DNA of 64,000 bases from Anatilimnocola floriformis (GTDB lineage Bacteria > Planctomycetota > Planctomycetia > Pirellulales > Pirellulaceae). The position numbers were made by a program, and so were the translations under genes. Where the stretch lies: NCBI RefSeq assembly GCF_024256385.1, contig NZ_JAMLFW010000001.1, positions 4,216,001-4,280,000 on the forward strand, read 5' to 3'. Positions within the stretch are counted from its first letter, which is position 1; every line of letters starts with the position of its first letter. Below the pieces are notes generated by a model. That model did not search any database, was not told the origin of the DNA, and worked only from the letters and a program-made list of their open reading frames with translations. Shown here in pieces: positions 11,829 through 29,265 of the stretch.

Positions 11829-12206
11829 ATGGAACTTCTCGCCGGCGCCGTCAGCCAAAAGACTTCGTCCGTTTCGCTCTACTACATGCACCTGCCGCTG
11901 CACTGGGTCGGCCTGGGCATGCTCGTCGCCATCGTCGGTGCCTGGCTAGTTTTTCGTTGGCGCAGCGCGCGGCTCAAGCGTTTGAACTCACCGCGACAAC
12001 TGCTGCGATCGCTGTTTCGCTTGCACGAAATGGGTTGGTCCGAGCGACAACTGCTCCTCACCTCGGCCCGCCGTCAAAAGGTGAAAGACCCGGCGCGGTA
12101 CTTCTTGGAATCAGAGCTCTGGCGGCAAGCCATCGAAGCCGAACGCTCGGCGTCGAACCGCCAACGCCTGGCGCAACTGCAGCTAAAAGTGCTGGGTAGT
12201 TGCTAA
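11829..12206 (+). CDS. Small single-pass membrane protein, unknown function
   Basis: A 125-residue protein with one transmembrane segment near residues 25-45 (WVGLGMLVAIVGAWLVFRW) followed by a basic, helical cytoplasmic part. I do not recognise a family. It starts 3 bases after the HEAT-repeat stop codon and is probably translated with it. Its 3' end is read antisense by the extended, host-fused integrase frame of the neighbouring prophage, which says nothing about its own function. Confidence 0.7.
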   Translation: MELLAGAVSQKTSSVSLYYMHLPLHWVGLGMLVAIVGAWLVFRWRSARLKRLNSPRQLLRSLFRLHEMGWSERQLLLTSARRQKVKDPARYFLESELWRQAIEAERSASNRQRLAQLQLKVLGSC

Positions 12207-13770
12207 CCTGCGGCCATTTGCTTTGGCTGTCGGTATCGCGAGTGGGTTGACAATTCGCCATCGCCATCGCAAGATAATGGTCTGTCCTGACGGCGGTACG
12301 CCCGCCTATTTTCACTGCACGCCCCCATCGTCTAGTGGCCCAGGACCCCGGGTTCTCAGTCCGGTAACAGGGGTTCGAATCCCCTTGGGGGTACTCTGCA
12401 ACACGGTGCAACTCAGCATCGTGTTTTGCTTTATCTGACAACGACTTACGGCCAGCGGGTTCACCGCTGGCCGTTTGCGTTGAGTTGCACGGTAAGTCGC
12501 CATTATGTGCCGTTTCGACTGCCAAGCACTGGCGTTTTCGCTGGCGTTTTTCGGGGTCGCTTTCGACGACTTTCGTCGCCGATTCATAGGTCGGCAAAGC
12601 ACTTACAGCCGCGCGAAGGTCGGCAATCCGCGTGTGACCGTAGCGACCAATCGTCAGCGTGGGCGTCGAATGGCGGGCCAGTTCCTGAGCGACTTTCACC
12701 GAAGCGCCTGAGTCAATGACGTTGGTGATGTAGGTATGGCGGTAGGCGTGGAAGTCGATCACTTCCCCCTCAGCGTTTTTGTACTTGAGGAAGTCGCTTG
12801 CCTGCCGCCGCTTGTGCTCCGCCTTGTCGTCTTCGGCTGCCTTGAGCCATTCCGCCCGTGCTGCTTTCAGATCGGCTTTCAGCATCCGGCAGAGCTTTTT
12901 GGGCAAGCCTTGGAAGACAAACTTCCCTTTCGCCTTGCCGACAAGCCACGCCTTTAGCGTTTCGGCTAGTGCGCGGCTGATTGGCTGAACTGCCAACTTG
13001 CGGTTTTTTACACAGCCAGCTTTGGCCGTGACCGTGGCGTTATCCAAATCCGTCAACTGGAAACTGGCTGGCGTCAGTTCCCGCAATTCGCTTCCGCGAT
13101 ACCCAGTGCCGTTGGCCAGTTGGTAAACGACGGCCCGCGTCTCGCCATCCAAGGCGTGAGACTGGTCGGTTCGCTTGCGCGTGCTGACGAGCAGCGTCGT
13201 CATTTCATCGGCAGTGAAGACGCGCCGAATATGGCGACGGTCGGTTTCGGCGTTGAACTTTTTCAGGCACTCAAGCTGGTCCTCGCGGATTACCTTTGCC
13301 TCTCGCGTCAGCCACCGCGTCAGTCCCTTGATTGCCGTCAGGTAGTGATTGCAGGTTGTCAGCCCGCGCGACTCACCACCCACATTGTCGCGAATCGCGG
13401 CAATCGCCTTTTGGACCGCTGGTGCGGTCAAGTCGCTGATGTACTTCGCCTTGGCATGGGCAATGACAGCTTCGCACTTGTACCGCGTCTCGCTGACGTG
13501 TTGTGCTGAGTTGTCACGCGCGGCCAAATCGGTCAGGAAGTTTTCCAGATGCTCTTTGATCGGTCGCCGCGCTTCGTGGGAATACCGATCTTCGCGCGGA
13601 TCAATCACACCGTCGCGCCGCAGGGCAGCAGCGGCTTCCCATTTTGCCGCGATGCGTTCTGCGGCTGCCTTGTCGCTGGTCTTGGTACTCTTGGTGCAGC
13701 GTTTACCTTCATGGTCGGTCCAATCTGCGATGTAGTTGCTGCCGCGCGAACGCTTGTAAATAGATGCCAT
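12058..13770 (-). CDS. int: Prophage tyrosine integrase; C-terminus currently fused to host antisense sequence
   Basis: A tyrosine recombinase that would integrate the phage at tRNA-Glu. Catalytic residues are visible: Arg in GTGYRGSELREL, HxxR in HAYRHTYITNV, His in ARHSTPTL and the nucleophile Tyr in GRYGHTRIADL, followed by ~200 residues. ATG at 13770 (MASIYKRSRG) is the likely start. The frame does not stop before attL: it crosses the 48-bp core, read as EYPQGDSNPCYRTENP, and ends at 12058 in host DNA antisense to the tRNA and the upstream gene (570 residues). In the excised circle the same frame would continue into 46604-46446 instead (526 residues), so the last ~96 residues here are probably meaningless host read-through. 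Confidence 0.9.
   Translation of the reverse strand: MASIYKRSRGSNYIADWTDHEGKRCTKSTKTSDKAAAERIAAKWEAAAALRRDGVIDPREDRYSHEARRPIKEHLENFLTDLAARDNSAQHVSETRYKCEAVIAHAKAKYISDLTAPAVQKAIAAIRDNVGGESRGLTTCNHYLTAIKGLTRWLTREAKVIREDQLECLKKFNAETDRRHIRRVFTADEMTTLLVSTRKRTDQSHALDGETRAVVYQLANGTGYRGSELRELTPASFQLTDLDNATVTAKAGCVKNRKLAVQPISRALAETLKAWLVGKAKGKFVFQGLPKKLCRMLKADLKAARAEWLKAAEDDKAEHKRRQASDFLKYKNAEGEVIDFHAYRHTYITNVIDSGASVKVAQELARHSTPTLTIGRYGHTRIADLRAAVSALPTYESATKVVESDPEKRQRKRQCLAVETAHNGDLPCNSTQTASGEPAGRKSLSDKAKHDAELHRVAEYPQGDSNPCYRTENPGSWATRRWGRAVKIGGRTAVRTDHYLAMAMANCQPTRDTDSQSKWPQVSNYPALLAAVAPGVGGSTPSVRLRWLAARALIPRSTAPGLSPFDGGPR
12247..12280 (+). promoter_or_regulatory. Probable sigma-70-type promoter of tRNA-Glu
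   Basis: A perfect TTGACA at 12247-12252 is followed after an 18-base spacer by AAGATAAT. Transcription would start about 40 bases upstream of the mature tRNA, leaving a short leader for 5' processing. Confidence 0.5.
12321..12393 (+). tRNA. tRNA-Glu (anticodon CTC)
   Basis: A 73-base cloverleaf: acceptor stem GCCCCCA / TGGGGGT with one G-T pair and discriminator A; D-stem GTC / GAC; anticodon stem CCGGG / TCCGG with loop TTCTCAG, giving anticodon CTC (reads GAG); T-arm AGGGG-TTCGAAT-CCCCT. CCA is not encoded. Its 3' 45 bases belong to the prophage attachment core, so the present gene is a 5' half from the host joined to a 3' half brought by the phage. Confidence 0.95.
12349..12396 (+). repeat. 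attL core (48-bp direct repeat with attR)
   Basis: Forty-eight bases, from the anticodon stem through the tRNA 3' end plus CTC, are identical to 46605-46652. The bases immediately outside differ (C versus G on the left, T versus A on the right). The integrase gene lies directly inside this end, as is usual for tRNA-integrating phages. Confidence 0.95.
12446..12476 (+). terminator. Hairpin copy downstream of tRNA-Glu, also duplicated at attR
   Basis: The stem CGGCCAGCGG / CCGCTGGCCG with a GTTCA loop is followed by a short TTTGCGTT run. Thirty-one bases including the hairpin are identical to 46701-46731, where the T run is longer. It probably terminates the tRNA transcript; on the minus strand it lies inside the integrase coding frame. 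Confidence 0.65.
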
Positions 13771-13836
13771 TTTTGTTGTTCCAAAAGAGGAAAGTGCCGA
13801 GCGGAGTCTAACTCCGTTCGGCACCGGAGTGGAGCG

Positions 13837-14010
13837 TCATTTGCCTCGATTTTCCGAGATAAATTGCCGTAAATCGTCTACTGAGTAACGGACTGCCCTG
13901 CCCAACCTCACGCACGGAATAACCCCACTGGCCGTGAGCGACCAGAGAAGGCGCTGAGAAATTGAAAGCATCACCGATGCTTCCTTTCGAGAAATCAAAA
14001 GTCGTTCCAT
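13837..14010 (-). CDS. Excisionase/AlpA-like helix-turn-helix protein
   Basis: A 57-residue protein on the minus strand starting MERLLISRKEASVMLSIS. It has the compact MerR-like winged-helix layout of excisionases: a helix-turn-helix (SRKEASVMLSISQRLLWSL) followed by the typical IPCVRLGRAVRYSVDDL wing. It likely bends DNA near attL/attR to direct excision, or acts as a small regulator. It starts 3 bases after the stop of the HNH-AP2 gene (translation coupling) and precedes the integrase by 66 bases, so the order is HNH, xis, int. It is easily missed because of its size. Confidence 0.8.
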   Translation of the reverse strand: MERLLISRKEASVMLSISQRLLWSLTASGVIPCVRLGRAVRYSVDDLRQFISENRGK

Positions 14011-14012
14011 TG

Positions 14013-14507
14013 TTATGCCGCCATTCCAAGGGTTTCAGATTCGGGGAAGTTCAGTACGGCGAAGTCTGGCCACACCGCTCGCGCCGCAGCGTCATACGCT
14101 CTTGCGGCCGCAATCTTGTCGTCGAAGCGACCAAGGCGAATTGGCACGTAGTTGACTTTGATCTTCGCGAGCCACTTCCCAGATTCCCAACAGACGCCAC
14201 GGAAGCCTGATTTGTTGTTTGCTCTCAATTTTGAGTTCACCGCGTTTTGCGATGCTGTGGCGGCCCGAAGATTTTCGAGCCGATTGTCTAAGCGATCTTT
14301 GTTGATGTGGTCAGTGCGAAAGCCTGGCTCGCGTCCCGCAAGTTCCATCACATAGCGGTGAAGCAGAATTGTCCGCCGCTCACCATCAATGTCGGCTTGG
14401 CGGTATGCGTAGCCTTTCGAGTGAAGGCTCCATTTGTATTGGTTCACTGCTTCGGCGAACTCATCGTCGATCTCGCTGAATGCGTCTTTGCTTAGTTCGA
14501 TTTTCAT
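14013..14507 (-). CDS. HNH endonuclease with AP2 DNA-binding domain
   Basis: A 164-residue protein. The HNH part (residues ~30-90) has LHRYVMELAG, the catalytic-type TDHINKDRLDNRLENLR with His-Asn, and is followed by an AP2 domain (NKSGFRGVCWESGKWLAKIK and LGRFDDKIAAARAYDAAA, residues ~97-150). This combination is typical of phage-borne homing endonucleases and free-standing HNH genes. Its ATG overlaps the upstream sigma-like gene stop (ATGA), and the excisionase start follows its stop by 3 bases. No sign that it sits inside an intron. Confidence 0.88.
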   Translation of the reverse strand: MKIELSKDAFSEIDDEFAEAVNQYKWSLHSKGYAYRQADIDGERRTILLHRYVMELAGREPGFRTDHINKDRLDNRLENLRAATASQNAVNSKLRANNKSGFRGVCWESGKWLAKIKVNYVPIRLGRFDDKIAAARAYDAAARAVWPDFAVLNFPESETLGMAA

Positions 14508-15022
14508 AGGGCTGTCTGATACTCCTGATAGATGGCGTTGCGACGGTTCCTCACTGTCGCGGGGGTAAGGTTCAGTTGCTTGGCGGTTTGGGCCACGGTG
14601 AATCGCTGCGAGAGAAGCTCGACGATTCGGTGGTCTGTCTCATCGCCGCAAGCGTCGTGGATGTCGGAGAGCATTTCCGCTGACCGATCCTCAGGCGCGG
14701 CGATGGCATCGCCTTCGATGGGCTCGAAGGTAGGCGGCTGGTAGGTGCCGTCTGCGATTCGCCGTTGCTTTGTGCTTGGCGATGGTCCCGGCTGGTCTGC
14801 CAGAATTGCTTTCTCAATTGCGTGGTCGATGCTAGTGGTCAGATAACCGTCGGTCGCGTCGGGCAGTGCATCCAGAGTCTCGATGAGCGCCACCAGCGCC
14901 ACGCTTTCCAAATCGTCGCGTAGGTAGCTGAGTGATGGGGTGCGTTTGACGCGGGCTGCAACACGACGTTTGCTCAGTGGCTGCAGTTCCAGAATGCGAT
15001 TGTCTCGCGGGGATAGGTCCAT
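14504..15022 (-). CDS. Sigma-70-region-like / HTH transcription factor of the prophage
   Basis: A 172-residue protein beginning MDLSPRDNRILELQPLS; the ATG at 15022 has an ideal AGGAG ribosome binding site 6 bases upstream. Residues ~35-75 (YLRDDLESVALVALIETLDA) resemble sigma-70 region 2.1-2.2, and the C-terminal RFTVAQTAKQLNLTPATVRN is a region-4-like helix-turn-helix. A clear -10-recognition helix (region 2.4) is not evident, so it could be an anti-terminator or sigma-like activator rather than a true sigma factor. It is the first gene of the minus-strand operon and faces the control region with tandem repeats at 15095-15335, the obvious candidate for its binding sites. Confidence 0.65.
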   Translation of the reverse strand: MDLSPRDNRILELQPLSKRRVAARVKRTPSLSYLRDDLESVALVALIETLDALPDATDGYLTTSIDHAIEKAILADQPGPSPSTKQRRIADGTYQPPTFEPIEGDAIAAPEDRSAEMLSDIHDACGDETDHRIVELLSQRFTVAQTAKQLNLTPATVRNRRNAIYQEYQTAL

Positions 15023-15094
15023 CGTGGACTCCTGGGGATATGCCACGGCCAGAGCGGCTACGCGGCGGTAAAGAATGGTGCGAGACTTTCTCGC

Positions 15095-15335
15095 TACCAA
15101 TACAGGATGGCAAAAACGCAGTTCGTTCTCAGAAATCCGGCAAGATTGCCGAGATTTCTCCTGTCCCTGCCTGCTACCAATACAGTAGGAAGAAATCGGT
15201 CATTTGTCCGGTGTGTTCGTGACTTCTTTCCCTAAGAATATAGGATGGCAAAAACGCGTTTTTTTCGCACACAAACCGGAAATTTTCCGGCTTTGTCGCC
15301 TTCCTACATATCAATATAAGAGGGCGAAAATGCGT
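15095..15335. repeat. Four spaced copies of a promoter/operator-like motif
   Basis: Similar blocks are anchored at 15099, 15179, 15237 and 15313, consensus AATAYAGGATGGCAAAAACG on the plus strand. Read on the minus strand, three share GAAC/GCGAA, then about 17 bases including CGTTTTTGCCATCC, then TRTATT, which looks like a tandem promoter or operator set firing towards the sigma-like gene at 15022. Spacings are 80, 58 and 76 bases. The fourth block (15179) keeps the CTACCAATACAG half but diverges afterwards. No gene is evident here. Confidence 0.6.
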
Positions 15336-16004
15336 TTTGTTCTCACGAAATCCAAACATTTTCGAGAATACTTTCTCCCGAATCGACGCGGCGATTCGCA
15401 TGGCACAGCAGAGTCAGGAGAGGGGCGTGGCTAAACTTCGCACGTCGATGCGTGGGCGCTTTTCTGGCCAACGCAGAGACCGCCGTGCGCGTTCTGATTG
15501 GGGTGCTATTTGCACGCTGCAGAACGCTGCCTATTGCGTTTAACGCGATGAGCATCTGGCGACGGCTTCACCGGTGCAGGATTGCTGACGCGGGGTAGTA
15601 ACTAGGGCAGTAAACAGTAACGAATTGGGGGTCGCCAGATTACCCCTTATAGAGTGTATGTTTATCTATATGTTTGTTGAACTTAATTCTAACTTACTAC
15701 ATTACTAGATTACTAAAAAGGGCTTTGGTGCGGCAAAAAGCGATGTGGAACGCTTAGTAATGAAGCGCGCGGCAAGTTACCACGTTACTGCTTTCCGCCG
15801 CGTGAGCAAACTATTTTCCGGATTCTGGCCAACTCTTTCATTTTCCATTTTCGTTTTCGGACTGCTTGACACTTGTATATCTATAGAGGGACGTTATGTC
15901 CCGACCGGTCGAGCCCATTGGCTCCCGCATCCAATCATTCCTAGCCCCGCGTGGGCCTGCGCTGCGGCAGTTGCTGACGAGCACGCCGCAGCCTCTTAAA
16001 CACC
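15336..16004. other. AT-richer non-coding control region with clustered AGTAAC / GTTACT words
   Basis: No convincing gene is seen in about 670 bases between the divergent phage operons. From 15597 to 15789 there are nine copies of AGTAA(C/A) or its complement (15597, 15609, 15616, 15694, 15702, 15710, 15754, 15776, 15784), set in sequence clearly richer in A+T than the surroundings. At 15866 TTGACA is followed by TATATCTATAGAGG, possibly part of a rightward promoter for the late genes. The region could be a phage origin or regulatory switch; the short open frames here lack ribosome binding sites and coding character. Confidence 0.45.
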
Positions 16005-16172
16005 ATGAGCCATGCCAACCAGTGCCCCTGCGGCGAGCCGATCAAGTACGCCGCCGAAACCCGCTGCGAAGATTGCTACGCAGACGCGGCACAGCGATTC
16101 CACGGCAACAGCCAAACCGTCAACACGCTTATCACCGCTGAACCTGACGCCAGGGTCGATACTCGGCTTTAG
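16005..16172 (+). CDS. Small zinc-ribbon protein
   Basis: A 55-residue protein (MSHANQCPCGEPIKY...). It contains a CxC and CxxC pair (CPCGEPIKYAAETRCEDC) that can hold one zinc ion, then an acidic tail. Function unknown. It is the first gene of the rightward operon. Its whole length overlaps, in another frame, the apparent N-terminus of the next gene; the protein sequence in this frame looks real, while the other frame is low-complexity Ser/Thr/Pro/Ala, so this frame is favoured. Confidence 0.55.
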   Translation: MSHANQCPCGEPIKYAAETRCEDCYADAAQRFHGNSQTVNTLITAEPDARVDTRL

Positions 16173-16701
16173 TGGCAATCACTGGGCAAGCGTTGGTATC
16201 AACCTTGTCACCTACGGCATCCCGTTCTGGAACCTGTCGCACGTCGGGATTGTCGGTGAACACGATGGCGACTTGGTCGTTTTTGAAAGCTGTGTTTCGG
16301 CCCCTGAACCCTGCCTGATTCGCGGTGAGCACTTCAGCGGCACCCAAGCTCACACGCTCGATTCCTTACTGACCTACAACGGCACTGTCTGGCACTACCC
16401 GCTCTGCCGCCCGCTGTACGAAGACGAACGCGAACGGCTCAACGACTTCCTTCATTCAACAATCGGCACGCCCTACGACGCAATCGGCGCGTTTCGTTCT
16501 GGTGGCCTTGGCTTCTCACTCATCGAGTCACTGCTTCGCAACCAAGACCTGAGCAGTCTCTTCTGCTCTGAGTGGTGCGCCGCTGCACTCTGCCACATTG
16601 GACTCTTCGCGACTGACAACGTGTCGCGATGGTCACCGAACAAATTCGTGCGTGCCGCGCGTCGGCAAGCGATTCTCTGTCGCCCGCAACGAATCAAATA
16701 A
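16012..16701 (+). CDS. Permuted papain-like (NlpC/P60 superfamily, YiiX-type) hydrolase
   Basis: The reliable part begins at about 16140 (LTPGSILGFSGNHWASVGIN) and shows the layout of circularly permuted NlpC/P60 amidases/peptidases: catalytic His in LSHVGIVGEH and catalytic Cys in LFCSEWCAAAL, the Cys coming after the His. Such proteins hydrolyse peptide or amide bonds; next to a holin-like gene it may be the lysis enzyme. The only in-frame ATG is 16012, giving 229 residues, but its first ~45 residues look like the out-of-frame translation of the zinc-ribbon gene. The true start may be a non-standard codon (for example CTG at 16138). A ribosome binding site for the next gene overlaps its end. 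Confidence 0.65.
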   Translation: MPTSAPAASRSSTPPKPAAKIATQTRHSDSTATAKPSTRLSPLNLTPGSILGFSGNHWASVGINLVTYGIPFWNLSHVGIVGEHDGDLVVFESCVSAPEPCLIRGEHFSGTQAHTLDSLLTYNGTVWHYPLCRPLYEDERERLNDFLHSTIGTPYDAIGAFRSGGLGFSLIESLLRNQDLSSLFCSEWCAAALCHIGLFATDNVSRWSPNKFVRAARRQAILCRPQRIK

Positions 16702-16711
16702 GGAGCGAACT

Positions 16712-17281
16712 GTGAAGCAACTACTGCTGATTCTGATTCTGCTCTTCGCGACCGCAGGTTGCGACATCAATCTCGACGTAAGCGGACCCGCAATTCACGG
16801 TCGCTCGTATATCACTGAGCCCGTGTGCAATCTGCCGGTCACCCTTCGACAAACAAACTGGCTCTCGCCATCACGCGAGGGAAGCTGTACTCACGCGACA
16901 GTCACCACCGCGCTTCGCTGGCAGAACCGACCGCACACGGCGAACGAATACGCCGCAACTCACAGCGGTGGTGAAACGCCGCAGAGCCTTGCCGCTCAAC
17001 TCAATGCCGCAGGCATTCGATACGTCGATAGCGTAGGTCAAAACGATGTTGCCTTCCTCGAATGGGCAATCGCCACGCGACGCGGCTGCCTTGTCACGGT
17101 GATGGGTGGACGCCACGCGGTGTTCTTAGCTGACCTAACACCGACGCACGCTTGTTTGATCGACAACAACGCACCGCAAGTGCCGCAATGGATCGAACGC
17201 GATGCCTTCCTTTCCGAATGGCAGCAGTCCCACAGTTGGGCTCTGGCCGTCCTTTATTCGCCAGTCCCGGAGTTGCCCTAG
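16712..17281 (+). CDS. Papain/C39-like cysteine peptidase lipoprotein
   Basis: A 189-residue protein with GTG start at 16712, AGGAG 6 bases upstream, and a lipoprotein signal (LLLILILLFATAGC, lipobox ATAGC). The exported part has a papain-fold catalytic set: Cys in REGSCTHATV, His in GGRHAVFLADL and Asn in LIDNNAP, close to C39/peptidase_C39-like enzymes. It would be anchored in an envelope membrane. Phage-coded lipoprotein peptidases can act in lysis, in envelope modification or in exclusion of other phages; context beside a holin-like gene slightly favours lysis. Its TAG stop overlaps the next GTG start (TAGTG). Confidence 0.75.
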   Translation: MKQLLLILILLFATAGCDINLDVSGPAIHGRSYITEPVCNLPVTLRQTNWLSPSREGSCTHATVTTALRWQNRPHTANEYAATHSGGETPQSLAAQLNAAGIRYVDSVGQNDVAFLEWAIATRRGCLVTVMGGRHAVFLADLTPTHACLIDNNAPQVPQWIERDAFLSEWQQSHSWALAVLYSPVPELP

Positions 17282-17511
17282 TGGAATTTGCCGACGCCAT
17301 CCAACTTGTCAAACAGTTTGGCCCGTTCTTCATCGCCGTGCTGTTCTTTCTCTGGCGTGATTGGCAACGCGAAGACCGACTCAGCAAGCGAATCGACCAC
17401 CTGGAAGATGAGCAGCGCCAAGTCATCATGCCGCTCGTGCGCGACTGCTCAGCGGTCATCACCAAAAACACAACAGTCATGGAACGAATCGAGAAATACC
17501 TTGAACGCTAG
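17281..17511 (+). CDS. Holin-like small membrane protein
   Basis: A 76-residue protein with GTG start overlapping the previous stop. One transmembrane segment near residues 13-27 (QFGPFFIAVLFFLWRDW) is followed by a charged coiled coil (RLSKRIDHLEDEQRQV) and a conserved-looking polar tail. This one-span plus coiled-coil layout is common among small phage holins and holin-associated proteins. No sequence family is recognised with certainty. It overlaps the next gene by 11 bases. Confidence 0.6.
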   Translation: MEFADAIQLVKQFGPFFIAVLFFLWRDWQREDRLSKRIDHLEDEQRQVIMPLVRDCSAVITKNTTVMERIEKYLER

Positions 17512-18082
17512 AATCTTCGCCCTGTTGGTGCTGCTCTTCGCCAGCACTGCAAACGCCGAACTGGTCACTGACCGTGCCTACGGCGTGAAACACAACCCCG
17601 CCGAGCTTCGCCTGACATACCGACCGCAAGATGGCGACAAGCAATACGTCACGGTCTTCGGCACCGGCGCACGACTGACTGAAGCTAAAGGCTGGTTTGA
17701 GACAAACCCCGAACTGAAACGACTGAAAGAGTCGAGCCACTTCAACTGCATCGACACCACGTCGGTCATGTTCCGCGATCGATACGCCAGCAATACGCCT
17801 GCCACGACCCTGATTCGCATTCAGGATCAGCGAGGCAAGACCATCCATGAGTTCAGCAATCTGCCGATGAGCGCGGAAGCATTCATTCGCAAGATGAACC
17901 ACGAATGCCCGCGACGTGAACAAGACGACCCGCCGCAACCACTGCCGCCACCGAACACACCAGCGCCCGCGCCGAAGCCGTCTATGCCTCTCTGGCCCAT
18001 CGCTCTCATCCTGGCCACCATCGCCGCAACTGTTGGCGGCATCCTTGGCATCAAGGCCAAGTGGACTGAAACACACTTCTAA
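17501..18082 (+). CDS. Exported protein with C-terminal membrane anchor, unknown
   Basis: Starts at TTG 17501, giving the signal peptide (L)NARIFALLVLLFASTANA. The mature part (~100 residues) faintly resembles a thioredoxin fold (SNTPATTLIRIQDQRGKTI) but lacks a CxxC motif. It continues into a Pro-rich linker (PPQPLPPPNTPAPAPKP) and ends in a transmembrane anchor (LWPIALILATIAATVGGILG). The result is 193 residues tethered at the C-terminus. With a signal peptide, a Pro-rich rod and an anchor it could span the periplasm like a spanin, but that is speculation. Confidence 0.6.
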   Translation: MNARIFALLVLLFASTANAELVTDRAYGVKHNPAELRLTYRPQDGDKQYVTVFGTGARLTEAKGWFETNPELKRLKESSHFNCIDTTSVMFRDRYASNTPATTLIRIQDQRGKTIHEFSNLPMSAEAFIRKMNHECPRREQDDPPQPLPPPNTPAPAPKPSMPLWPIALILATIAATVGGILGIKAKWTETHF

Positions 18083-18094
18083 GAGAACAAACAA

Positions 18095-18478
18095 ATGATC
18101 CTGACCGGAACAAGTATCGCTATTAGTCTTCTCAGCGTGGGCTGCGCTGGCCTGGGCGCATACACGCTGGGCAAGTGGCTCTTCACGAAAGACACCGAGA
18201 TTGAAGCTCGTCGTCGCGCTGCGATGCAGATCACCGGCAAGCTGGAAGGCTTCGGCCTGAAACGACTGCCACGAATCACCGGTGCCTATGCAATCGGTGA
18301 CTACAGTCTGCTTGCCCACGAACTGAAAGCCTTCGCTGACATCCTCATCGGTGACGCCACCGCGCTGATGAAGGAATTCGACGAAGTCTTCACCAACGTG
18401 CTGCGGATCAAACTGCAGACGCCCGAAGGCAAAGCACTCGTCGCCGCCAAACTTGCTGACGCGAGCGTGGCCGCTTGA
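18095..18478 (+). CDS. Small membrane protein, unknown
   Basis: A 127-residue protein with one N-terminal transmembrane segment (SIAISLLSVGCAGLGAYTLG) and a soluble helical remainder (ADILIGDATALMKEFDEVF). Not recognised. It sits in the tightly packed envelope cassette 13 bases after its upstream neighbour and overlaps the following lipoprotein gene by 4 bases. Confidence 0.6.
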   Translation: MILTGTSIAISLLSVGCAGLGAYTLGKWLFTKDTEIEARRRAAMQITGKLEGFGLKRLPRITGAYAIGDYSLLAHELKAFADILIGDATALMKEFDEVFTNVLRIKLQTPEGKALVAAKLADASVAA

Positions 18479-18726
18479 GACCATTGCTGCTTCTGCTCTT
18501 AGCTTTCTGCCTTGGTTGTGAAGCCAGTGAAACGCACGTTGTCGCGTACACCGCGCCGTGGTGCCGTCAGTGCGTAATCGACAAGCCGCTGCTGCAATCG
18601 CTGCCCGTGCCCTTCACAGAAGTTGAACCGACACCCGGCATGACTATTCCGCAATACGAAGTGCATCGTGATGGCAACGTCACCACGACGCATGACATCC
18701 ATCGAGTAATTGATCTGTGCCGATAG
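18475..18726 (+). CDS. Thioredoxin-fold lipoprotein
   Basis: An 83-residue protein from TTG 18475. The lipoprotein signal is LLLLLLAFCLGC. The mature part has a redox-active CxxC in YTAPWCRQCVIDK and the cis-proline loop in MTIPQYEVHRDG, both hallmarks of glutaredoxin/thioredoxin folds; at ~68 residues it is a minimal version. It could reduce or form disulfides in envelope proteins, possibly those of the neighbouring Cys peptidases (inference). It overlaps both neighbours, so it is a true operon member. Confidence 0.7.
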   Translation: MRPLLLLLLAFCLGCEASETHVVAYTAPWCRQCVIDKPLLQSLPVPFTEVEPTPGMTIPQYEVHRDGNVTTTHDIHRVIDLCR

Positions 18727-18998
18727 CCGCCAAGCCCTTGAGAACTCAGCCGCGCCACGAGTCGCGACTCAGTTCTTATCGGCGCGGATACGATCACCAC
18801 TGGCGCGCTGCCCGCATCCAATTCCTTCGGCAGCATCCGCTCTGCGTCGAGTGCCAATCAGTCGGCATCGCAACCGCAGCAACCGTCGTCGATCACGTCA
18901 CACCGCACCGTGGCTGCTACGCACTGTTTTGGAATCAATCGAATTGGCAATCGTTGTGCGAGCGATGCCACAACGTGAAGACCGCGCACGGTGGGTAG
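18717..18998 (+). CDS. HNH endonuclease
   Basis: A 93-residue HNH nuclease: CVECQ, then VVDHVTPHRG, then NWQSLCERCHNVKTAHGG, i.e. the zinc-binding Cys pairs around the D-H and N/H catalytic motif. GTG start at 18717 overlaps the upstream gene by 10 bases. In HK97-type phages a small HNH protein works with the terminase for cos cleavage; here it lies about 4.6 kb before the terminase genes, so that role is plausible but not certain. Confidence 0.85.
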   Translation: MPIAAKPLRTQPRHESRLSSYRRGYDHHWRAARIQFLRQHPLCVECQSVGIATAATVVDHVTPHRGCYALFWNQSNWQSLCERCHNVKTAHGG

Positions 18999-19080
18999 GG
19001 TGATCAAAATTTGACCATGCCTAAAGCCGCTAGACCGTGCCCATCGGAAGCGTATTTTTTGTCAAAAATCTGAGGGTCCG

Positions 19081-19722
19081 ATGGACTGGAAGTCACGCGG
19101 CATCGAGCTACACCACGGCGACTGCCGGGACTGGCTCGATTCCGTCACCGCCGATGCGGTCATCACTGACCCGCCCTACGGCATTGCCCACAACACAAAC
19201 TACACCCGCTTCACTGGCGGACTTTCCGACCACCGCAACTTCGAGACGCCAATCGCTGGCGACGATGAGCCCTTCGACCCTTCGCCGTTCATGCGATTCA
19301 AGAAGGTGATTCTCTGGGGCGCAAACTGTTTCAGCGACCGGCTGCCAATGGGCACCTGGCTCGTATGGTGCAAGCGCCGCGACAACCAGATTGGAACCTT
19401 TATGTCTGACTGCGAAGTCGCGTGGCAGAAAGGTGGCCACGGTGTCTATCTGCATCGCCACATCTGGAATGGTTTCGACCGCGAGTCAGAACGTGGCAAG
19501 ACAATCCACCCGACTCAGAAACCCGTCGCACTGATGCGATGGTGCATTGAGCGGCTAAAGCTAAAACCCGGCTCGACGATCTTCGACCCCTACATGGGTT
19601 CCGCGCCAGTGGCGCAAGCGGCCATCGAACTTGGTCACCGCTACATCGGCATCGAGAAAGATGCCAAGCACTTCGCCACCGCCGTCAAACGAATCGAATC
19701 ACTGAACATGCTGGCGGCATAA
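19081..19722 (+). CDS. Orphan DNA methyltransferase (N4/N6 amino type)
   Basis: A 213-residue type II-like DNA methyltransferase. Catalytic motif IV is DPPYG (near residue 33) and the SAM-binding motif I at the C-terminal end is IFDPYMGSAPVAQAA, so the order is motif IV before motif I as in the beta class. Phages use such orphan enzymes to protect their DNA from host restriction or to time gene expression. No cognate restriction gene is seen. The target sequence cannot be inferred. Confidence 0.9.
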   Translation: MDWKSRGIELHHGDCRDWLDSVTADAVITDPPYGIAHNTNYTRFTGGLSDHRNFETPIAGDDEPFDPSPFMRFKKVILWGANCFSDRLPMGTWLVWCKRRDNQIGTFMSDCEVAWQKGGHGVYLHRHIWNGFDRESERGKTIHPTQKPVALMRWCIERLKLKPGSTIFDPYMGSAPVAQAAIELGHRYIGIEKDAKHFATAVKRIESLNMLAA

Positions 19723-19931
19723 GACGCCGCAGCGGTGCCGATCTTGAATCGTTCCCTGTTCCCTCAAGCGACTTGTCGTCGGCACCGCGTGGCGCTGGCC
19801 TGGGCCAGTGACTCCGCAAAGCGCTGTCAGCGAGAGCATCGTGCAGTATCGCTTGGGCCTTCACGAACGCGAATCACTTCAGCCTTTCTAACCTAAGCGC
19901 GGGCGAGTACAAGCCCCACCTTTGAGGTCAC
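19723..19931. other. Intergenic region, 209 bases
   Basis: No gene, promoter consensus or T-rich terminator stands out. It separates the methyltransferase from the next operon of structural genes, so a late promoter may lie here. Confidence 0.3.
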
Positions 19932-20249
19932 ATGACGAATTACCAACGCGCCAAAGAGCTTGCCTCTTTCGGCGCTGAACTTTGCACCGAAGCGAAGTCA
20001 CTGCTCAACGGCATCAACAGCTTCCTAGCGACGAACACCACGTTCTCCATCGACTGGGCTGCTGAGACCTTGCCCGACAATCTTCAAGAGTCGAACGACG
20101 GCAACCTCGATGGCCTGCACTTCTCGCGCACCGACTTGGCGAATGCCATCTACAGCCTGAATCAAATCAAGGCGCTTCTGCTTGGCGAATCCGTCTCGCA
20201 AGGCAACTACTTCGGCAACGTTCTGAAACTCGCACAGGTGGAAGCATAG
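19932..20249 (+). CDS. Hypothetical phage protein
   Basis: A 105-residue soluble, mostly helical protein (MTNYQRAKELASFGAELCTEA). Not recognised. First gene of the appendage cluster; its TAG stop overlaps the next GTG start, indicating coupled translation. A GAGGT precedes the ATG. Confidence 0.65.
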   Translation: MTNYQRAKELASFGAELCTEAKSLLNGINSFLATNTTFSIDWAAETLPDNLQESNDGNLDGLHFSRTDLANAIYSLNQIKALLLGESVSQGNYFGNVLKLAQVEA

Positions 20250-20614
20250 TGGCAACCAGACTCGCGGGCCTGTTAGTCGAGGCAGTCGCCGGGACTAACC
20301 TTAGCGGCCATCGAGCGGTGGCCCTCATCAATAACCTGGCAGTCTATGCGTCCAACGGGAACCCCGCTCACCTTGGCTGCGTTCGTGGCATTTCCGTCGC
20401 CGCTACTGTTGCCGACGCGACCGCACTCATTCGAGTGTATGGACCGATGCTCGAACCTTCTTTCAGCTTCGTGCCCGGCCCCATCTTCGTCGGGCTCAAT
20501 GGCTCGCTGACGCAGACACCACCAACAACCGGATGGCTACAGCAGATTGCCGTGGCTGATTCACCAACGCAAATCTTCGTAGACCCGCAACCGCCGATTG
20601 ACCTCGGCAACTAA
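20249..20614 (+). CDS. Hypothetical virion-associated protein
   Basis: A 121-residue protein (GTG start). Beta-rich with an N-terminal Ala/Val/Leu-rich part. It contains SFSFVPGPIFVGL, a short word (FVPG) that recurs in the protein at 22951-23229, suggesting related small structural modules. Family unknown. Confidence 0.55.
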   Translation: MATRLAGLLVEAVAGTNLSGHRAVALINNLAVYASNGNPAHLGCVRGISVAATVADATALIRVYGPMLEPSFSFVPGPIFVGLNGSLTQTPPTTGWLQQIAVADSPTQIFVDPQPPIDLGN

Positions 20615-20622
20615 GGAACAAA

Positions 20623-21138
20623 ATGGCTGGTAACAAGTATCTCAAAAACGCTTCGGGAACCATCACCGAAGAAGCTGCAATTCAGTCTTCGGCTGGCGCT
20701 GGCGATGCGGGCAAGATTCCCGCTCTCGATTCGGCTGGCAAGCTCGACAATTCCATGATGCCCACGGGCATCGGCGGTGACACCAAGCAGATTGTCGCGA
20801 GCGAAGCTCTTTCGGCTGGCAATCTTATCAACGTCTACAACAACGCTGGCACGCTGAACATGCGCAAAGCGGATGCGACCACGGCTGGCAAAGAAGCAAA
20901 TGGCTTCGTGCTGTCGTCGGTGAGTTCGAGCGCGACGGGCACCGCCTACTTCGAGCAACTCATTACTGGACTTTCCGGCCTGACGGTTGGCGCGCAGTAC
21001 TATCTTTCGACCACGGCAGGCACACCATCCACCACGGTGCCTTCTACGAGCGGCAACATCGTTCAGAAGATTGGCCGCGCTCTCTCTGCCACCGAGCTTC
21101 TGTTCATGCCGCAGCCAGATCCAATCACTCTTGCCTAG
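20623..21138 (+). CDS. Putative capsid decoration or fibre-like protein
   Basis: A 171-residue protein, Ala/Gly/Ser/Thr-rich, with the pattern GAGDAGKIPALDSAGKLDNS seen in phage fibre and decoration proteins, followed by a compact beta domain (YFEQLITGLSGLTVGAQYYL). Likely a virion surface component. It has an AAGGAA ribosome binding site and lies 9 bases after the previous gene. Assignment is by composition and context only. Confidence 0.55.
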   Translation: MAGNKYLKNASGTITEEAAIQSSAGAGDAGKIPALDSAGKLDNSMMPTGIGGDTKQIVASEALSAGNLINVYNNAGTLNMRKADATTAGKEANGFVLSSVSSSATGTAYFEQLITGLSGLTVGAQYYLSTTAGTPSTTVPSTSGNIVQKIGRALSATELLFMPQPDPITLA

Positions 21139-21156
21139 TTCGCATAAGGTTGCCCA

Positions 21157-22281
21157 ATGACGAAACGACTGGTCGTTCACGAGAGCGGCAATCATCTTGA
21201 AGTGCCGGTCTTCACCGGTGCCACGAGTGGTCATACCTACGTTCAGATTGCGAATTCATCGAACGTCGGCACGGTGAAACTCGGTGGTGCATCGAACGGC
21301 AACGTGTCAATCTTCGACTCCAGCGCGAATCTGAGAATGTCGCTTTCGGCGGATGTCGCAGGCAACGCACAAATCAACGGCTACGATGCGTCGGGCACAA
21401 ACACCTTCACCATCAACTCGGCAGGGATCTTTTCCGGCCCGGCCAGTTGCCAGTATCTGACTTCGACTGTTGCGACAGGAACGCCGCCGCTCTTCGTTAC
21501 TTCGACGACCGTCGTGACGAATCTCAACGCTGACAAACTCGATGGCTATGATGCCACCGCGTTTGAAGCTGCGGGTACGACCAGCACCCATGCCGCGCTG
21601 ACCGCCGCTCACGGCGCAACGGGCGCGGTTGTTGGCACGACGAATAGTCAGACGCTGACGAACAAGACCATCGTCGTTGCGAACAACACAATCACCACGG
21701 CAGCGAGCGGCAACCTTGCCGCCACCGAACTCAACGCCGCGCTAGCAGAGTTGCAAGCTGACATCGACACACGTGCAACAACGCAAAAGGGACGAATTCG
21801 GTTCCTGAAATCGTTGCCTCCCGCCACGCTCTTCGCCACGGAAGACATTCGCCCTGGCGGTAGCTCACCGGCTGAGTCCGTCATCGTGTGGGACTTCGAC
21901 GCCGCTTCGATCGAATACATGGACTTCCTCTGCGTACTCGAACACTACGGTGGCGGTGGACTGACGTTCTCACTGCCCTGGTCAGCAACGTCCGCGACGA
22001 GCGGCGCTGTCCGCTGGGGCGTTGCGATTCGCCGCATGACCGATGACGCCGAAGATGTGGACGCTTCCAAAACATACGACTTCAACGAAGTCGATGACAC
22101 CGCAGCCAGTGCTTCGGGCGAACTCAGTTACGCGACGATCACGTTTACCAATGGTACCGACATGGACAACCTGGCTGACGGCGAGTTGGCGATTGTTCGC
22201 GTCCGGCGCAATGGGTCACATGCGAATGACACCATGAGCGGCGATGCCGAGTTGTGGTTGCCGAACGCAAGGGAGACCTAA
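21157..22281 (+). CDS. Putative tail fibre protein
   Basis: A 374-residue repetitive beta-rich protein. It has two halves: an N-terminal fibre region with the tail-fibre motif NADKLDGYDATAF near residue 125 and NSQTLTNKTI near residue 165, and a C-terminal globular domain from about residue 210 (QKGRIRFLKSLPP) that might bind the host. A Leu/Ala heptad (LNAALAELQADIDTR) sits between them and could trimerise the fibre. It is placed before the terminase genes, unlike the usual end-of-tail position. Confidence 0.65.
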   Translation: MTKRLVVHESGNHLEVPVFTGATSGHTYVQIANSSNVGTVKLGGASNGNVSIFDSSANLRMSLSADVAGNAQINGYDASGTNTFTINSAGIFSGPASCQYLTSTVATGTPPLFVTSTTVVTNLNADKLDGYDATAFEAAGTTSTHAALTAAHGATGAVVGTTNSQTLTNKTIVVANNTITTAASGNLAATELNAALAELQADIDTRATTQKGRIRFLKSLPPATLFATEDIRPGGSSPAESVIVWDFDAASIEYMDFLCVLEHYGGGGLTFSLPWSATSATSGAVRWGVAIRRMTDDAEDVDASKTYDFNEVDDTAASASGELSYATITFTNGTDMDNLADGELAIVRVRRNGSHANDTMSGDAELWLPNARET

Positions 22282-22282
22282 A

Positions 22283-22951
22283 ATGGCCCGCAATCTCGAT
22301 GGCGTGTCGGACTACATGCAAGGCAGCAATGTTCGCAACGTGCCGTTCACGATGGCAATTTGGTTCAACCCGAATGCCGTAACTGCCACGCTTACGCTGT
22401 GCTCGCTATGCACGGGTGGGGTATCGGACCAAAGCCGCTTCCTACTGAACTGTCACGGCGCGCTGGCTGGCGACCCGCTGCGTGCCTCGACGGTGAACTC
22501 TTCCGGCACTAGCTCTTTTGCTGCTACATCAACGGCTTCCGTGGCTGGCAGTTGGCAGCACGGTTGCGGTGTATTCGGCTCGGCAAGCAGCCGCGCTGTA
22601 TATCTCAACGGTGGTGGTAAGGGCACCGAGTCTACGTCCCGGGCAATCAGCAATTCAGCGGTCGTTATCGCGGGCGCACAGCAGACGACTTCTGGCGTGT
22701 ACACCAGCCAGTTTGACGGTTTGCTTGCGCACTTCACTATCTGGAACGTCGCTCTGACGGACGCCGAAGTCGCCTTGATTGCAAAGCCTGGCTTCGATTC
22801 CACGCGTATGCGACCGAATGCAATCATCGGACATTGGCCATTGATCGGCCGAGTGAGTCCTGAAATCGACATTCGCGGTGGTGCGAACCTGACGTTGAGT
22901 GGCTCTCCCGGCGCAGGCGACCATCCACGCTTCTGTCAGGAGTTGTGGTGA
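22283..22951 (+). CDS. LamG / concanavalin-A-like domain protein
   Basis: A 222-residue jelly-roll protein of the LamG/concanavalin A-like glucanase-lectin type: ARNLDGVSDYM, FTMAIWFNP, then AVYLNGG and FDGLLAHFTIWNVALTDAEV, the hallmark DxxxIWNxAL-type strand. Such domains bind sugars; with the fibre gene next to it, a role in adsorption to cell-surface glycans is likely. ATG at 22283 follows the previous stop by 1 base. Confidence 0.75.
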   Translation: MARNLDGVSDYMQGSNVRNVPFTMAIWFNPNAVTATLTLCSLCTGGVSDQSRFLLNCHGALAGDPLRASTVNSSGTSSFAATSTASVAGSWQHGCGVFGSASSRAVYLNGGGKGTESTSRAISNSAVVIAGAQQTTSGVYTSQFDGLLAHFTIWNVALTDAEVALIAKPGFDSTRMRPNAIIGHWPLIGRVSPEIDIRGGANLTLSGSPGAGDHPRFCQELW

Positions 22952-23229
22952 TGGAGCTAATCCTTGACCCTTTCGCCAGCGATCTGATTCTCGACCCGCT
23001 GGCCGATGATCTAATTCTGATTATCGGCGAAGCACTGCCGCACGTTGGTGGCTCGTTCAAGTGTGACGCTCACTGGCAGTTCGTTCCCGGCGCAGTAGCC
23101 ACCGAACTCTTCACGCTCACCACGCTGGCCTTCTCGTTTGTACCTGGCACTCGTGCCACGTATCTCTTCGCGTCTTCTGACGCAGCCGATTCTTTCGTTC
23201 CGGGACCGCCATGCAGATCATCGACTTAG
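22951..23229 (+). CDS. Small repetitive protein, unknown
   Basis: A 92-residue protein with AGGAG 7 bases before its ATG. Two kinds of internal repeat are visible: LILDPFASD / LILDPLADD at the N-terminus and three FVPG units (WQFVPGAVATELF, FSFVPGTRATYLF, DSFVPGPP). It overlaps the next gene by 19 bases. Probably a small structural protein; not recognised. Confidence 0.5.
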   Translation: MELILDPFASDLILDPLADDLILIIGEALPHVGGSFKCDAHWQFVPGAVATELFTLTTLAFSFVPGTRATYLFASSDAADSFVPGPPCRSST

Positions 23230-23582
23230 AACCCGTCGTTCCCACGACCGGCTTCTATATCCTCTCCCGTATAAAAAACCGGGCAGGCAATTGGGCAGTT
23301 CAGTCAGACATCACATCCATCAGCGTGCGCGTTGTGGACGAGGCAACGAACGAACTTGTCTCGACAAGCTCACCCGCTGTCGCTGACGTAGTCTCGAACA
23401 CGTTGCAGCTTGATGGCCGCTGGCCCAAAGACAAGCTCGGTTACAACGTCGCCTATCCCACCGCTGCCGCTGAGACGCCCGAGCCCAACGCCAGCTATCT
23501 CTTCAAAATCAAATTCACGCCCGTGACCGGCGCGCCGTTCTTTGAATACTACCGGGTTCGCACGCTGGCTCCCGCGTTCTAG
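23211..23582 (+). CDS. Hypothetical structural protein
   Basis: A 123-residue beta-rich protein (FYILSRIKNRAGNWAV; SYLFKIKFTPVTGAPFFEYY) resembling an immunoglobulin-like or head-fibre domain in composition. Family not recognised. Last gene of the appendage cluster, 9 bases before the terminase small subunit. Confidence 0.55.
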   Translation: MQIIDLEPVVPTTGFYILSRIKNRAGNWAVQSDITSISVRVVDEATNELVSTSSPAVADVVSNTLQLDGRWPKDKLGYNVAYPTAAAETPEPNASYLFKIKFTPVTGAPFFEYYRVRTLAPAF

Positions 23583-23591
23583 GAGCCGACT

Positions 23592-24041
23592 ATGACACGC
23601 GGACGACCCCGCAAACCCACCGCTGATCTGATTCTCGAAGACAAGTTTCGCCGTGACCGACACGGTGAACCATCGGAAGTCTGGATTCCAGCGGGCGCAC
23701 CGCAGATGCCGGATTGGCTGAGCCCTGACGCGAAGGCGCTCTGGCAATCCATCGTCCCCGCTCTCGCCAATCGCGGCGTGGCCACCAGCGTTGACGCTGC
23801 TGAACTTGGCGCGCTTTGCGATTGGTTCGCCCGCTACCGCGCTGCCAGCCGCGCGCTCGATGCCGTGACCGACATCAAGAGCACCGACTATTACCGCCTG
23901 CAAATCTTGGCAGGCGCTGCTTTCAAAAACTTCTCCACGACCGCCAGCAAGTTCGGGCTGAATCCGTCAGACCGCGCCCGCCTCCAGATCGAAGGCACCG
24001 ATCAATCGAAGGATGAGCTTCTCGCATTTGCCAAGGATTAA
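23592..24041 (+). CDS. Terminase small subunit, P27 family
   Basis: A 149-residue DNA-recognition subunit of the packaging motor. Start MTRGRPRKPTADLILE and the helical segments PDWLSPDAKALWQSIVPAL and AAFKNFSTTASKFGLNPSDR are typical of the P27/terminase_4 family (positively charged N-terminus, then central oligomerisation helices). Directly upstream of the large subunit (2-base gap), as usual. Confidence 0.9.
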   Translation: MTRGRPRKPTADLILEDKFRRDRHGEPSEVWIPAGAPQMPDWLSPDAKALWQSIVPALANRGVATSVDAAELGALCDWFARYRAASRALDAVTDIKSTDYYRLQILAGAAFKNFSTTASKFGLNPSDRARLQIEGTDQSKDELLAFAKD

Positions 24042-24043
24042 GC

Positions 24044-25681
24044 ATGGACACGCTGACGAAGCGTTGGATTCTCAACGCTGCGGACGAGCGTGCTGTCGCC
24101 AATGGCTGCCGGTTTGATGAGAAACGCGGACAGAAAGTAGTCTCGTTCTTCGAGCGATTTTTACATCTATACGAAGGAGAGTTCGCGGGTCAGCGGTTCG
24201 TTCCGCAAGACTGGCAAGCGGATCTCCTGATGCGCTGCTTTGGTTGGGTGCGCCCTTCCGATCACTGGCAGCGCGACGTGCGCCGATTCCGCAAAGCAAG
24301 CATCTTCGTCCCAAAGAAAAACGGTAAGTCGCCGCTTGGTGCTGGCGTCGGCTTGTACTTGCTGACCGGTGACGGTGAGCAAGGGCAGAAAGTCTTCTCG
24401 GCAGCGCGTGACGGCGTGCAAGCGCGAATCATGCACGAGCACGCCATGCGAATGGTTCAGCTTTCGCCATCGCTTAGCAAGCACTGCAAGATCAATAAGA
24501 GCACTGGCCGCATAGCATTCCTGCCAACGGCATCGACCTACTCGATTCTCGCAGGCGACAACATCAATTCCCAAGAGGGATTGAATGGCTCTGTTGTGAT
24601 CGACGAAATCCACGTCGTCAGTTCTCAGCTTGCCTCCGTGCTGGAACACATGGGCGCCTCTCGTGCTGAGTCACTGCAATTTGAAATCAGCACCGCCGGT
24701 AATAACCCCGAAGGATACGGTCGCAAGCAATACGAATACGGCAAATCGGTCGAGCGTGGTGACTTCCACGACGACCAGTTTCTCTTCGTCGCTTACGAAG
24801 CCCCACAAGACTGCACCGACGAAGACATTGAAACCAAGCCAGAAATCTGGCAAGCAGCTAACCCGTCGTGGGGCGTAACGATCAACGAAGAAGAGTTCCG
24901 CTCTTCACTCAACCGCGCCAAGCGGTCGCTCACCGACTGGTCGAACTTCTGCATGTACCGGCTCAACCGCTGGCAAGCGTCGGCGAACCCGTGGCTAAAG
25001 CAGGATGATTGGTCAAAGTGTGCCCGCAACTTCTCAGCCGATGACCTGCAAGGAATGCCTTGCTGGCTCGGACTGGACCTATCAAAAACACGTGACTTGA
25101 CTGCAGCCGTGCTGGTCTTTCCCGATGCCGATGGTGAGACGTTCTGGCAGTTGCCGTACTTCTTTCTTCCCGAAGAAGAAGCCAAGGCAAAGAACCATCT
25201 GGCTCCATTCCTCGAATGGGCGAACGATGGCTACCTGGAACTGACACCCGGCAATGTGCTCGACTATCGCCATGTTCTGCGGCGTATCGCTGAACTCAGC
25301 AAGCAGTTCGACATTCAAGGTGTGGCCTACGACAAGACCTATGCCGAAGAACTGACTCAAACGCTCGAAGAAGAACACGGCATTGAACGCTTTGTCTTTG
25401 AGCAATCGTGGCGCAACTTCGCTAGTGGCACCGCCGATTACGAGCGGCTCGTCATCGGTGGCAAGTTCTTCCACCCGAATCATCCGCTGCTGTCCTGGCA
25501 AGCCAATCACTGCGAAGTGAAGACCGACAGCAATCTAAACAAGCGCCCGGTCAAACCGCCCCACAACTCGATTAAGAAAATCGACGGCGTGGTGGCTGGC
25601 ATCATGGCGCTTTCCGCCGCAATCGCGCGGCCAGCAACTCATTCCGTTTACGATCAGAAGGGAGCGGTCCTTGCTCTTTGA
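24044..25681 (+). CDS. Terminase large subunit (HK97-type)
   Basis: A 545-residue packaging ATPase/nuclease. Walker A-like loop is VPKKNGKSPLGAG (~residue 90), Walker B is GSVVIDEIH (~residue 185), and the RNase-H-like nuclease begins with GLDLSKTRDLTAAVLVF (~residue 345), supplying the metal-binding Asp. Length and order match the YmfN/HK97 group. It overlaps the portal gene by 11 bases. Confidence 0.95.
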   Translation: MDTLTKRWILNAADERAVANGCRFDEKRGQKVVSFFERFLHLYEGEFAGQRFVPQDWQADLLMRCFGWVRPSDHWQRDVRRFRKASIFVPKKNGKSPLGAGVGLYLLTGDGEQGQKVFSAARDGVQARIMHEHAMRMVQLSPSLSKHCKINKSTGRIAFLPTASTYSILAGDNINSQEGLNGSVVIDEIHVVSSQLASVLEHMGASRAESLQFEISTAGNNPEGYGRKQYEYGKSVERGDFHDDQFLFVAYEAPQDCTDEDIETKPEIWQAANPSWGVTINEEEFRSSLNRAKRSLTDWSNFCMYRLNRWQASANPWLKQDDWSKCARNFSADDLQGMPCWLGLDLSKTRDLTAAVLVFPDADGETFWQLPYFFLPEEEAKAKNHLAPFLEWANDGYLELTPGNVLDYRHVLRRIAELSKQFDIQGVAYDKTYAEELTQTLEEEHGIERFVFEQSWRNFASGTADYERLVIGGKFFHPNHPLLSWQANHCEVKTDSNLNKRPVKPPHNSIKKIDGVVAGIMALSAAIARPATHSVYDQKGAVLAL

Positions 25682-27778: not shown

Positions 27779-27912
27779 CGAACGTGGGCGACCTCACGCC
27801 CGCTATTCCAAGCACTCTCTAGCGCGATGCCCGGTGGCCAAAGCCGCCTTTCTTCCGCGCTCCATTCTGCGGCCATCCGCCGCACTCTCTTTCTCCCTCT
27901 CTGGAGTACCCG
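27779..27912 (+). other. Pyrimidine-rich hairpin spacer before the capsid gene
   Basis: Contains GGGCG / CGCCC and GCCGC / GCGGC inverted repeats and the words TTCTTCCGCGC and CCGCACTCTC. Similar words recur in the spacers at 31194-31253 and 34105-34155. No gene. Possible RNA-processing or expression-control element. Confidence 0.4.
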
Positions 27913-29247: not shown

Positions 29248-29265
29248 TGCGTGCTGGTTTGAGTT

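Follow-up and report, generated by a model that had tools for sequence, protein, structure and literature searches.

A prophage of Anatilimnocola floriformis (Planctomycetota) carries a tyrosine integrase gene, int, that very probably spans its own phage attachment site (attP), with the catalytic part on one side and a C-terminal tail on the other. The element lies in a stretch of 64,000 nucleotides (contig NZ_JAMLFW010000001.1, positions 4,216,001 to 4,280,000), hereafter the window, in which all coordinates without a contig name are counted. The layout in which int runs through the attachment core into a tail coded at the far end of the element also holds in related planctomycete elements that target many transfer RNA (tRNA) genes. 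We give a probability of about 60% to the whole explanation, namely that the gene spans attP, that integration swaps the tail and that the activity of the enzyme is thereby switched. The switch in activity, taken by itself and argued by analogy, is a tentative proposal.

Two endings of one integrase frame

The element is bounded by two copies of a 48-bp core that are 100% identical (repeat comparison within the window). It is a tailed prophage, since genes for a terminase, a portal, a major head protein and a tape measure lie between the cores (gene assignment was run on ten frames of the element). The left core corresponds to the 3' part of a tRNA-Glu(CTC) gene. On the minus strand, int starts at the ATG at 13770, and 458 codons precede the core. 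PF00589 (tyrosine recombinase/phage integrase) matches residues 184-380 (E 1.9e-12, 47.8 bits for a cut-off of 27.1). The int frame runs exactly through the core (12396-12349), which makes up 16 codons (codons 459-474), EYPQGDSNPCYRTENP, and the prophage frame stops at 12058-12060. An in-silico junction of the frame with the phage side of attR adds 52 further residues up to a stop at 46446-46448. Integration therefore replaces the C-terminus of Int: the prophage frame encodes 570 amino acids (aa), the final 96 being host-derived, and the joined frame 526 aa. The first-pass annotation of this DNA had described the frame as open through the core into host antisense DNA, and the same frame as leaving attR in register for 53 codons. 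These figures are exact to the base, the joined form being an in-silico translation.

An alternative start, GTG at 13824, would give 588 aa. The ATG start is retained by L007, an IMG/VR locus whose int is 86% identical, and which shows the same tRNA target and the same read-through as the window. No match to the tail of the window was found in the L007 record, whose contig ends 29 nt beyond the tRNA, the far end of the element being absent.

Read-through in related planctomycete integrases

Relatives were sought in 98 genomes of the same genus, family and order, and matches were obtained in 69. As a single protein query, the integrase of the window found no relative in the genome contigs, and 33 loci were reached with an alignment (A3). 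In IMG/VR, the single protein found one locus, A3 found three and a further alignment (A4) found 44. A tblastn search against 50,697 phage records, Mx8 among them, gave no match at E 1e-5.

The first round yielded 35 int loci. A convergent tRNA accompanies 25 rows, and the int stop lies beyond the tRNA 3' end in all 25; these rows include the window, L004 and L005, which are one gene, and L020, which has an internal stop. Among the other ten rows, a transfer-messenger RNA (tmRNA) is present at L002, L027, L033, L034 and L035, and neither tRNA nor tmRNA was found at L003, L021, L024, L028 and L036. After the addition of loci from IMG/VR and GTDB contigs and deduplication, 84 distinct int frames displayed the tyrosine pattern, 44 of them with a convergent tRNA. 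The int frame passes the tRNA 3' end in 43 of these 44 distinct cases, window included. By comparison, the two alternative frames over the same DNA, which served as control, are open in 4 of 88 instances. The median distance from the tyrosine to the tRNA in the 44 frames is 95 codons. Moreover, four loci (L017, L018, L025 and L032) are outside the tyrosine-pattern count, yet int passes the tRNA in each of them. The targeted tRNAs include those for Glu, Cys, Ser, Arg, Met, Lys, Leu, Phe and Thr, in addition to the tmRNA at the five other loci. In a second integrase family (L112-like), all nine frames pass the tRNA and control frames are open in 5 of 18; this sample held 30 loci, of which 12 have no frame with the tyrosine pattern and nine no convergent tRNA.

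The first-pass annotation had held that homologous integrases consistently ending upstream of the core would tell against its reading; the closest relatives read through the core, as do the 43 frames above. A chance open frame was also considered. It is ruled out by the family evidence, i.e. the contrast between 43/44 and 4/88 and the register of the module described below, and not by the window alone.

The genome of A. floriformis contains, in another region (G000:C1 5892043-5924397, loci L002, L003 and L071-L073), two integrases of the group in tandem, the first one at a tmRNA.

A conserved module at the opposite end of the elements

The far ends of the elements were retrieved and scanned for a second copy of the core. 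Joining int across this far core gives open tails, most of which end in the motif LxxIVxAWPxLPxxIRxAxLAxV (AWP module). Among 19 candidate second cores, those of L160, L162, L176, L197, L199 and L204 were set aside, the second copy being inside or downstream of int, as was that of L191, whose joined tail does not contain the module. No second core was found in the retrieved stretches of L018, L019, L022, L030, L031, L024 and L034; that of L027 was found through pairing by shared DNA.

Thirteen int/module pairs were defined by shared DNA, and int and module are in frame in 12 of them. The thirteenth, L023, has two core copies in the int frame and is in frame at the tRNA-adjacent copy. The int and the far tail of L002 and L111 are likewise in frame. 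In L025 and the window, the tail is open but lacks the motif. Judging from residue patterns in 21 elements, the antisense T-arm of the tRNA is read in one frame by ten elements, in another by six and in a third by three, two being unassigned. Since at least three frames are thus in use, the register of the tail is a property of each element and not of the tRNA. In L023 (G077:C116, ~140900-143100), the stretch between the two core copies is similar to the phage-side tail, as might be left by a second integration of a joined form.

A pattern search of the retrieved loci gave 57 module instances, those of related elements not being independent. An antisense T-arm is located at most 330 nt upstream in 40 of the 57, compared with 1384 of 20000 random windows (at most one mismatch). 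Pairwise mismatch between the 57 instances is 0.48, 0.33 and 0.64 at codon positions 1, 2 and 3, which suggests that the module behaves as protein-coding sequence, the figure being biased towards coding because the search pattern itself favours conserved residues. A profile built from eight modules matches 67 of the 98 genomes at E up to 0.05, likely false matches included. This profile also matches the C-terminus of lipoyl dehydrogenase in PDB (E 5e-4), so that module matches in frames of 440-490 aa may be lipoyl dehydrogenases; L264, the one such frame inspected, is kinase-like by eye. Searches with tails against Pfam and PHROGs (five tails each) and NCBIfam (four tails) returned no family below E 0.1. 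By eye, the AWP module also terminates a LuxR-like frame (L248) and the kinase-like frame L264; hence, it might be a C-terminal module in general use among planctomycetes.

These data bear on the idea that nothing matters past the catalytic domain and that stop-poor antisense tRNA simply lets the frame run on into a functionless tail. Such neutral read-through would agree with the abundance of equally long open stretches in the prophage (2652 of its 9384 windows, whatever the frame, have 52 open codons, though real genes are counted in and make this background generous), with the predicted disorder of the linker, with a lysogen ending made of arbitrary host DNA and with the lack of a profile match for the tail of the window. 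We nevertheless consider it unlikely, given the roughly 95 codons that separate the tyrosine from the tRNA while control frames are so rarely open, the conserved module in register with int and the pattern of mismatches across codon positions.

Naturally joined frames

The catalytic domain, the core residues and the module are found in one frame in four contigs. Three of them (L141, L143 and L168) are from IMG/VR, and the fourth (L108) is contig G067:C30 of a metagenome-assembled genome, which begins within int. Another contig of the same genome, G067:C68, carries a stretch of int that is 95% identical and has the attL form, beside a tRNA-Lys. Furthermore, in the second family, a 242-codon frame of L112 fuses, by eye, a recombinase-like C-terminus to the module, and a 556-codon frame of G067:C21 aligns to L112 across both parts. 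No tRNA was found in the inspected joined-form loci. The viral records of L141, L143 and L168 name no circular end class. The uninterrupted passage of the frame through the core, which the first-pass annotation had deduced, is thus borne out by natural contigs of relatives, that of the window itself being joined in silico.

Alternatively, the tail could be an independent small protein, for instance a directionality factor, that merely adjoins attP. Modules do occupy separate short frames at sites resembling attR, and the attR frame of the window has 84 codons with an internal ATG. In a variant of this idea, translation could begin at host-side starts in attR, the in-frame ATG giving MRRCATEYPQ...LDD in the lysogen. 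The int register kept in 12 of 13 pairs, and in L023 at the tRNA-adjacent core, together with the four natural contigs that have one continuous frame, makes a separate gene very improbable. The lysogen could conceivably make a tail peptide that acts in trans.

Predicted structure and the tail of the window

The AlphaFold2 model of the natural joined integrase L141 has a confident recombinase core and a disordered linker (residues 423-534) that takes in the core-encoded residues. The module follows as a short helix (538-545) and a long helix (552-570), with a predicted local distance difference test score (pLDDT) of 84, 88 and 75 in blocks of ten residues. The fold groups with XerA, the Tn1549 integrase and lambda Int (Foldseek). 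The motif L[RQK]ATGT[DH] recurs shortly after the catalytic tyrosine in the linkers of many relatives.

The attR frame of the window taken alone (84 residues, single-sequence prediction, mean pLDDT 61) has helices at 59-63 and 68-83, and its tail is accordingly predicted to form a helical hairpin. It resembles the AWP module only in this predicted shape. A divergent AWP module was proposed for this tail and dropped, the profile being without match. The best match among 84 integrase tails is the C-terminus of L165 (IMG/VR), ending in ...ALESIVANLSAGDKQTLLKMLRQTRVG. This match is moderate: one of 2000 shuffles equalled its score, i.e. ~0.04 when the 84 tails are allowed for. A two-sequence profile of the window and L165 matches 5 of the 98 genomes, strongly only for the window itself, the other four having E values of 0.01-0.04 in long frames. 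No relative was found in IMG/VR with the tail of the window as query. A free phage bearing exactly this type of tail, which the first-pass annotation had proposed to search for, was not found, L165 being the nearest. The tail of the window is therefore a less typical member of the group.

Weight of the evidence and possible role of the tail

Several observations weigh against an attP-spanning integrase with a functional tail. At a single locus, an open tail of the length seen in the window is not rare by chance, so this tail, considered alone, is possibly fortuitous. It has no match to the conserved module profile even at E 1000, tails of its type are absent from all other genomes of the 98 searched, and the excised circle of the prophage was not seen. 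The four joined contigs could be tandem junctions: they prove that the frame exists and not that the DNA is circular, because the junction of tandem prophages would look identical. Some relatives also depart from the layout. L211, the sole frame among the 44 that does not read through, is 136 aa long. L003, the second tmRNA prophage integrase in the genome of A. floriformis, stops at the junction with the tail of the neighbouring element. L017 has two far copies of the core, and joining at the longer one yields a tail of 9 codons that lacks the module. The candidate far core of L191 likewise yields a module-free tail, of 26 codons, and L191 may be a genuine exception. Lastly, a set of 30 IMG/VR relatives, most of them distant, includes 20 that lack a T-arm both within int and beyond it (one of the 20 is L143, in which the core can be recognised by eye), and 13 of the 30 end at most 32 residues from the tyrosine pattern. 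Integrases at large therefore need no tail.

If the attP-spanning architecture is accepted, a free circle or a tandem array would make Int with its tail, and crossover at the core would place the full length of the prophage between tail and enzyme. As a consequence of this separation, the lysogen Int would terminate in antisense-tRNA and host residues that are not under selection. The make-up of Int would then report its integration state. The tail would most likely aid integration or the assembly of an active synaptic complex, a role that we favour because the module of the relatives is folded, tethered and conserved and its replacement in the lysogen is arbitrary host sequence. Loss of the tail might leave a weaker or excision-biased Int, partnered on induction by the Xis-like protein encoded upstream, following the logic of Mx8.

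The tail, or the host-derived sequence that replaces it, might instead set the half-life of Int, in which case integration would alter the amount of the enzyme and not its chemistry. A stability role for the tail is nearly as plausible as one in integration or synapsis. It would suit the C-terminal place of a small folded module on a disordered tether (both predicted), and also the presence of this module at the end of the LuxR-like and kinase-like proteins, as would be expected of an exchangeable tag. Common C-terminal degrons are smaller than a folded two-helix module, and a tag that governs only the level of Int is, as an account of the whole system, rather unlikely.

Returning to the attP-spanning integrase, a wider statement seems to us evenly poised between right and wrong: in at least two families of Planctomycetota integrases targeting tRNA or tmRNA genes, the far end of the element would code for a C-terminal domain that is attached only through the attP junction. 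The make-up of the enzyme would sense DNA topology (free or tandem as opposed to a single integrated copy), and selection would retain a domain that the enzyme of a single-copy prophage cannot acquire. Furthermore, planctomycete integrases taken from prophage genomes may be unsuitable as constructs for integration tools, because lysogen forms end in antisense-tRNA residues.

Attachment site and neighbouring features

The features of the locus are listed in Table 1. In G001, a genome of the same genus, a tRNA-Glu without insertion is identical across the core and diverges immediately beyond it. This fits an attB site at the 3' end of tRNA-Glu; the two loci are not a strict empty-site pair, since their flanks are non-syntenic. 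By eye, the int of L007 is also preceded by a close counterpart of the 57-aa excisionase-like protein. On either side of the core, candidate arm-type repeats fall within coding DNA, so that the same DNA may serve both as binding site and as code. The antisense strand of the phage-carried hairpin beside the tRNA encodes part of the int linker.

The host flank right of attR (46653-46740) resembles the phage arm of L007 (7250-7380) for ~32 nt by the core, frameshifted relative to int, and has a terminator-like hairpin common to the attL arms of the phage of the window and of L007. This flank could be read either as a captured host tRNA terminator or as the scar of an earlier prophage. Outside the prophage, two adjacent imperfect direct repeats (48606-48746 and 49441-49579, spacing ~834 nt) consist of segments of 68 nt (85% identical) and 48 nt (96%).

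Table 1. Features of the prophage and its attachment site (positions in the window)
Feature	Position	Strand	Basis or remark
Prophage, core to core	12349..46652	.	identical 48-bp cores; phage structural genes inside
attL core, 48 bp	12349..12396	.	core repeat and int frame translation
attR core, 48 bp	46605..46652	.	core repeat and int frame translation
tRNA-Glu(CTC), attachment target, regenerated at attL	12321..12394	+	ARAGORN; unoccupied counterpart in G001
int, lysogen form, 570 aa; 96 aa (12060-12348) host antisense	12058..13770	-	translation; PF00589
int before core, 458 codons including the catalytic part	12397..13770	-	translation; PF00589
Phage-side int tail, 52 codons and stop, in register through core	46446..46604	-	translation
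Excisionase-like protein, 57 aa, just upstream of int	13837..14010	-	PHROG 66, E 7.7e-6
Terminase	24044-25681		inside prophage
Portal	25671-27215		inside prophage
Major head protein	27913-29247		inside prophage
Tape measure	32365-34104		inside prophage
Candidate arm-type repeats, attR side: CATTTTCGGCACT (twice), GCACTGGCGTTTTC (once)	46530..46598	.	inside tail coding DNA
Candidate arm-type repeats, attL side: GCACTGGCGTTTTC, CTGGCGTTTT	12526..12550	.	inside int coding DNA
Terminator-like hairpin, phage-carried, beside tRNA	12446..12481	+	36-nt repeat with 46701-46736, 94% identical; L007 alignment

Comparison with known systems

In mycobacteriophages with integration-dependent immunity, attP lies in the repressor gene. 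There, as in the window, integration alters the 3' end of a phage coding sequence; however, the protein altered is the repressor in those phages and the integrase here. In the E. coli prophage DLP12, the single case compared in this respect, intD converges on the 3' end of argU as int does on its tRNA, but the intD stop (564815) is outside argU (564723-564799) and the tRNA is not entered.

The 'suicidal' integrases of the archaeal SSV type also have the recombination site inside the integrase gene, which is broken by integration according to the available text of PMC8371274. In that text, the break splits the N-terminal part from the catalytic domain. The integrase of the window differs, since its catalytic residues all precede the core and the C-terminal tail alone is exchanged.

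The closest known case is the Int of Myxococcus phage Mx8 (AF396866), in which the attP core is likewise inside the int frame. In the available text of PMC6070905 and PMC4383910, attP lies within int and integration creates a new int 3' end; the first of these sources adds that this new end modified the specificity of the integrase and did not inactivate it. In our analysis, an exact antisense tRNA T-arm is in frame at codon 416 of Mx8 int, which continues for ~100 codons beyond. As in the window, an excisionase gene is upstream, Mx8 Uoi being annotated just before int and overlapping its start. Unlike those of the planctomycete relatives, the Mx8 tail is below threshold against the planctomycete module profile. 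The first-pass annotation had the architecture and all its numbers right; it overlooked Mx8, which is nearer than the two precedents that it invoked, archaeal split integrases and phages with attP in the repressor gene.

Hence, the integrase of the window is an instance of a principle known from Mx8. Among the titles listed by literature searches, with most subscription journals not covered, none concerned a Planctomycetota integrase that crosses attP or changes its C-terminus. A bacterial lineage whose attP sites are coding, in elements that target many tRNA genes as well as tmRNA, would allow a direct test of whether integration reprograms the integrase. Here, moreover, a domain keeps its register with the enzyme across a short core of tRNA origin whose reading frame varies between elements. 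Compared with Mx8, what looks new is the lineage-wide occurrence of this layout in Planctomycetota, together with a conserved module that is joined to the enzyme solely in the attP form.

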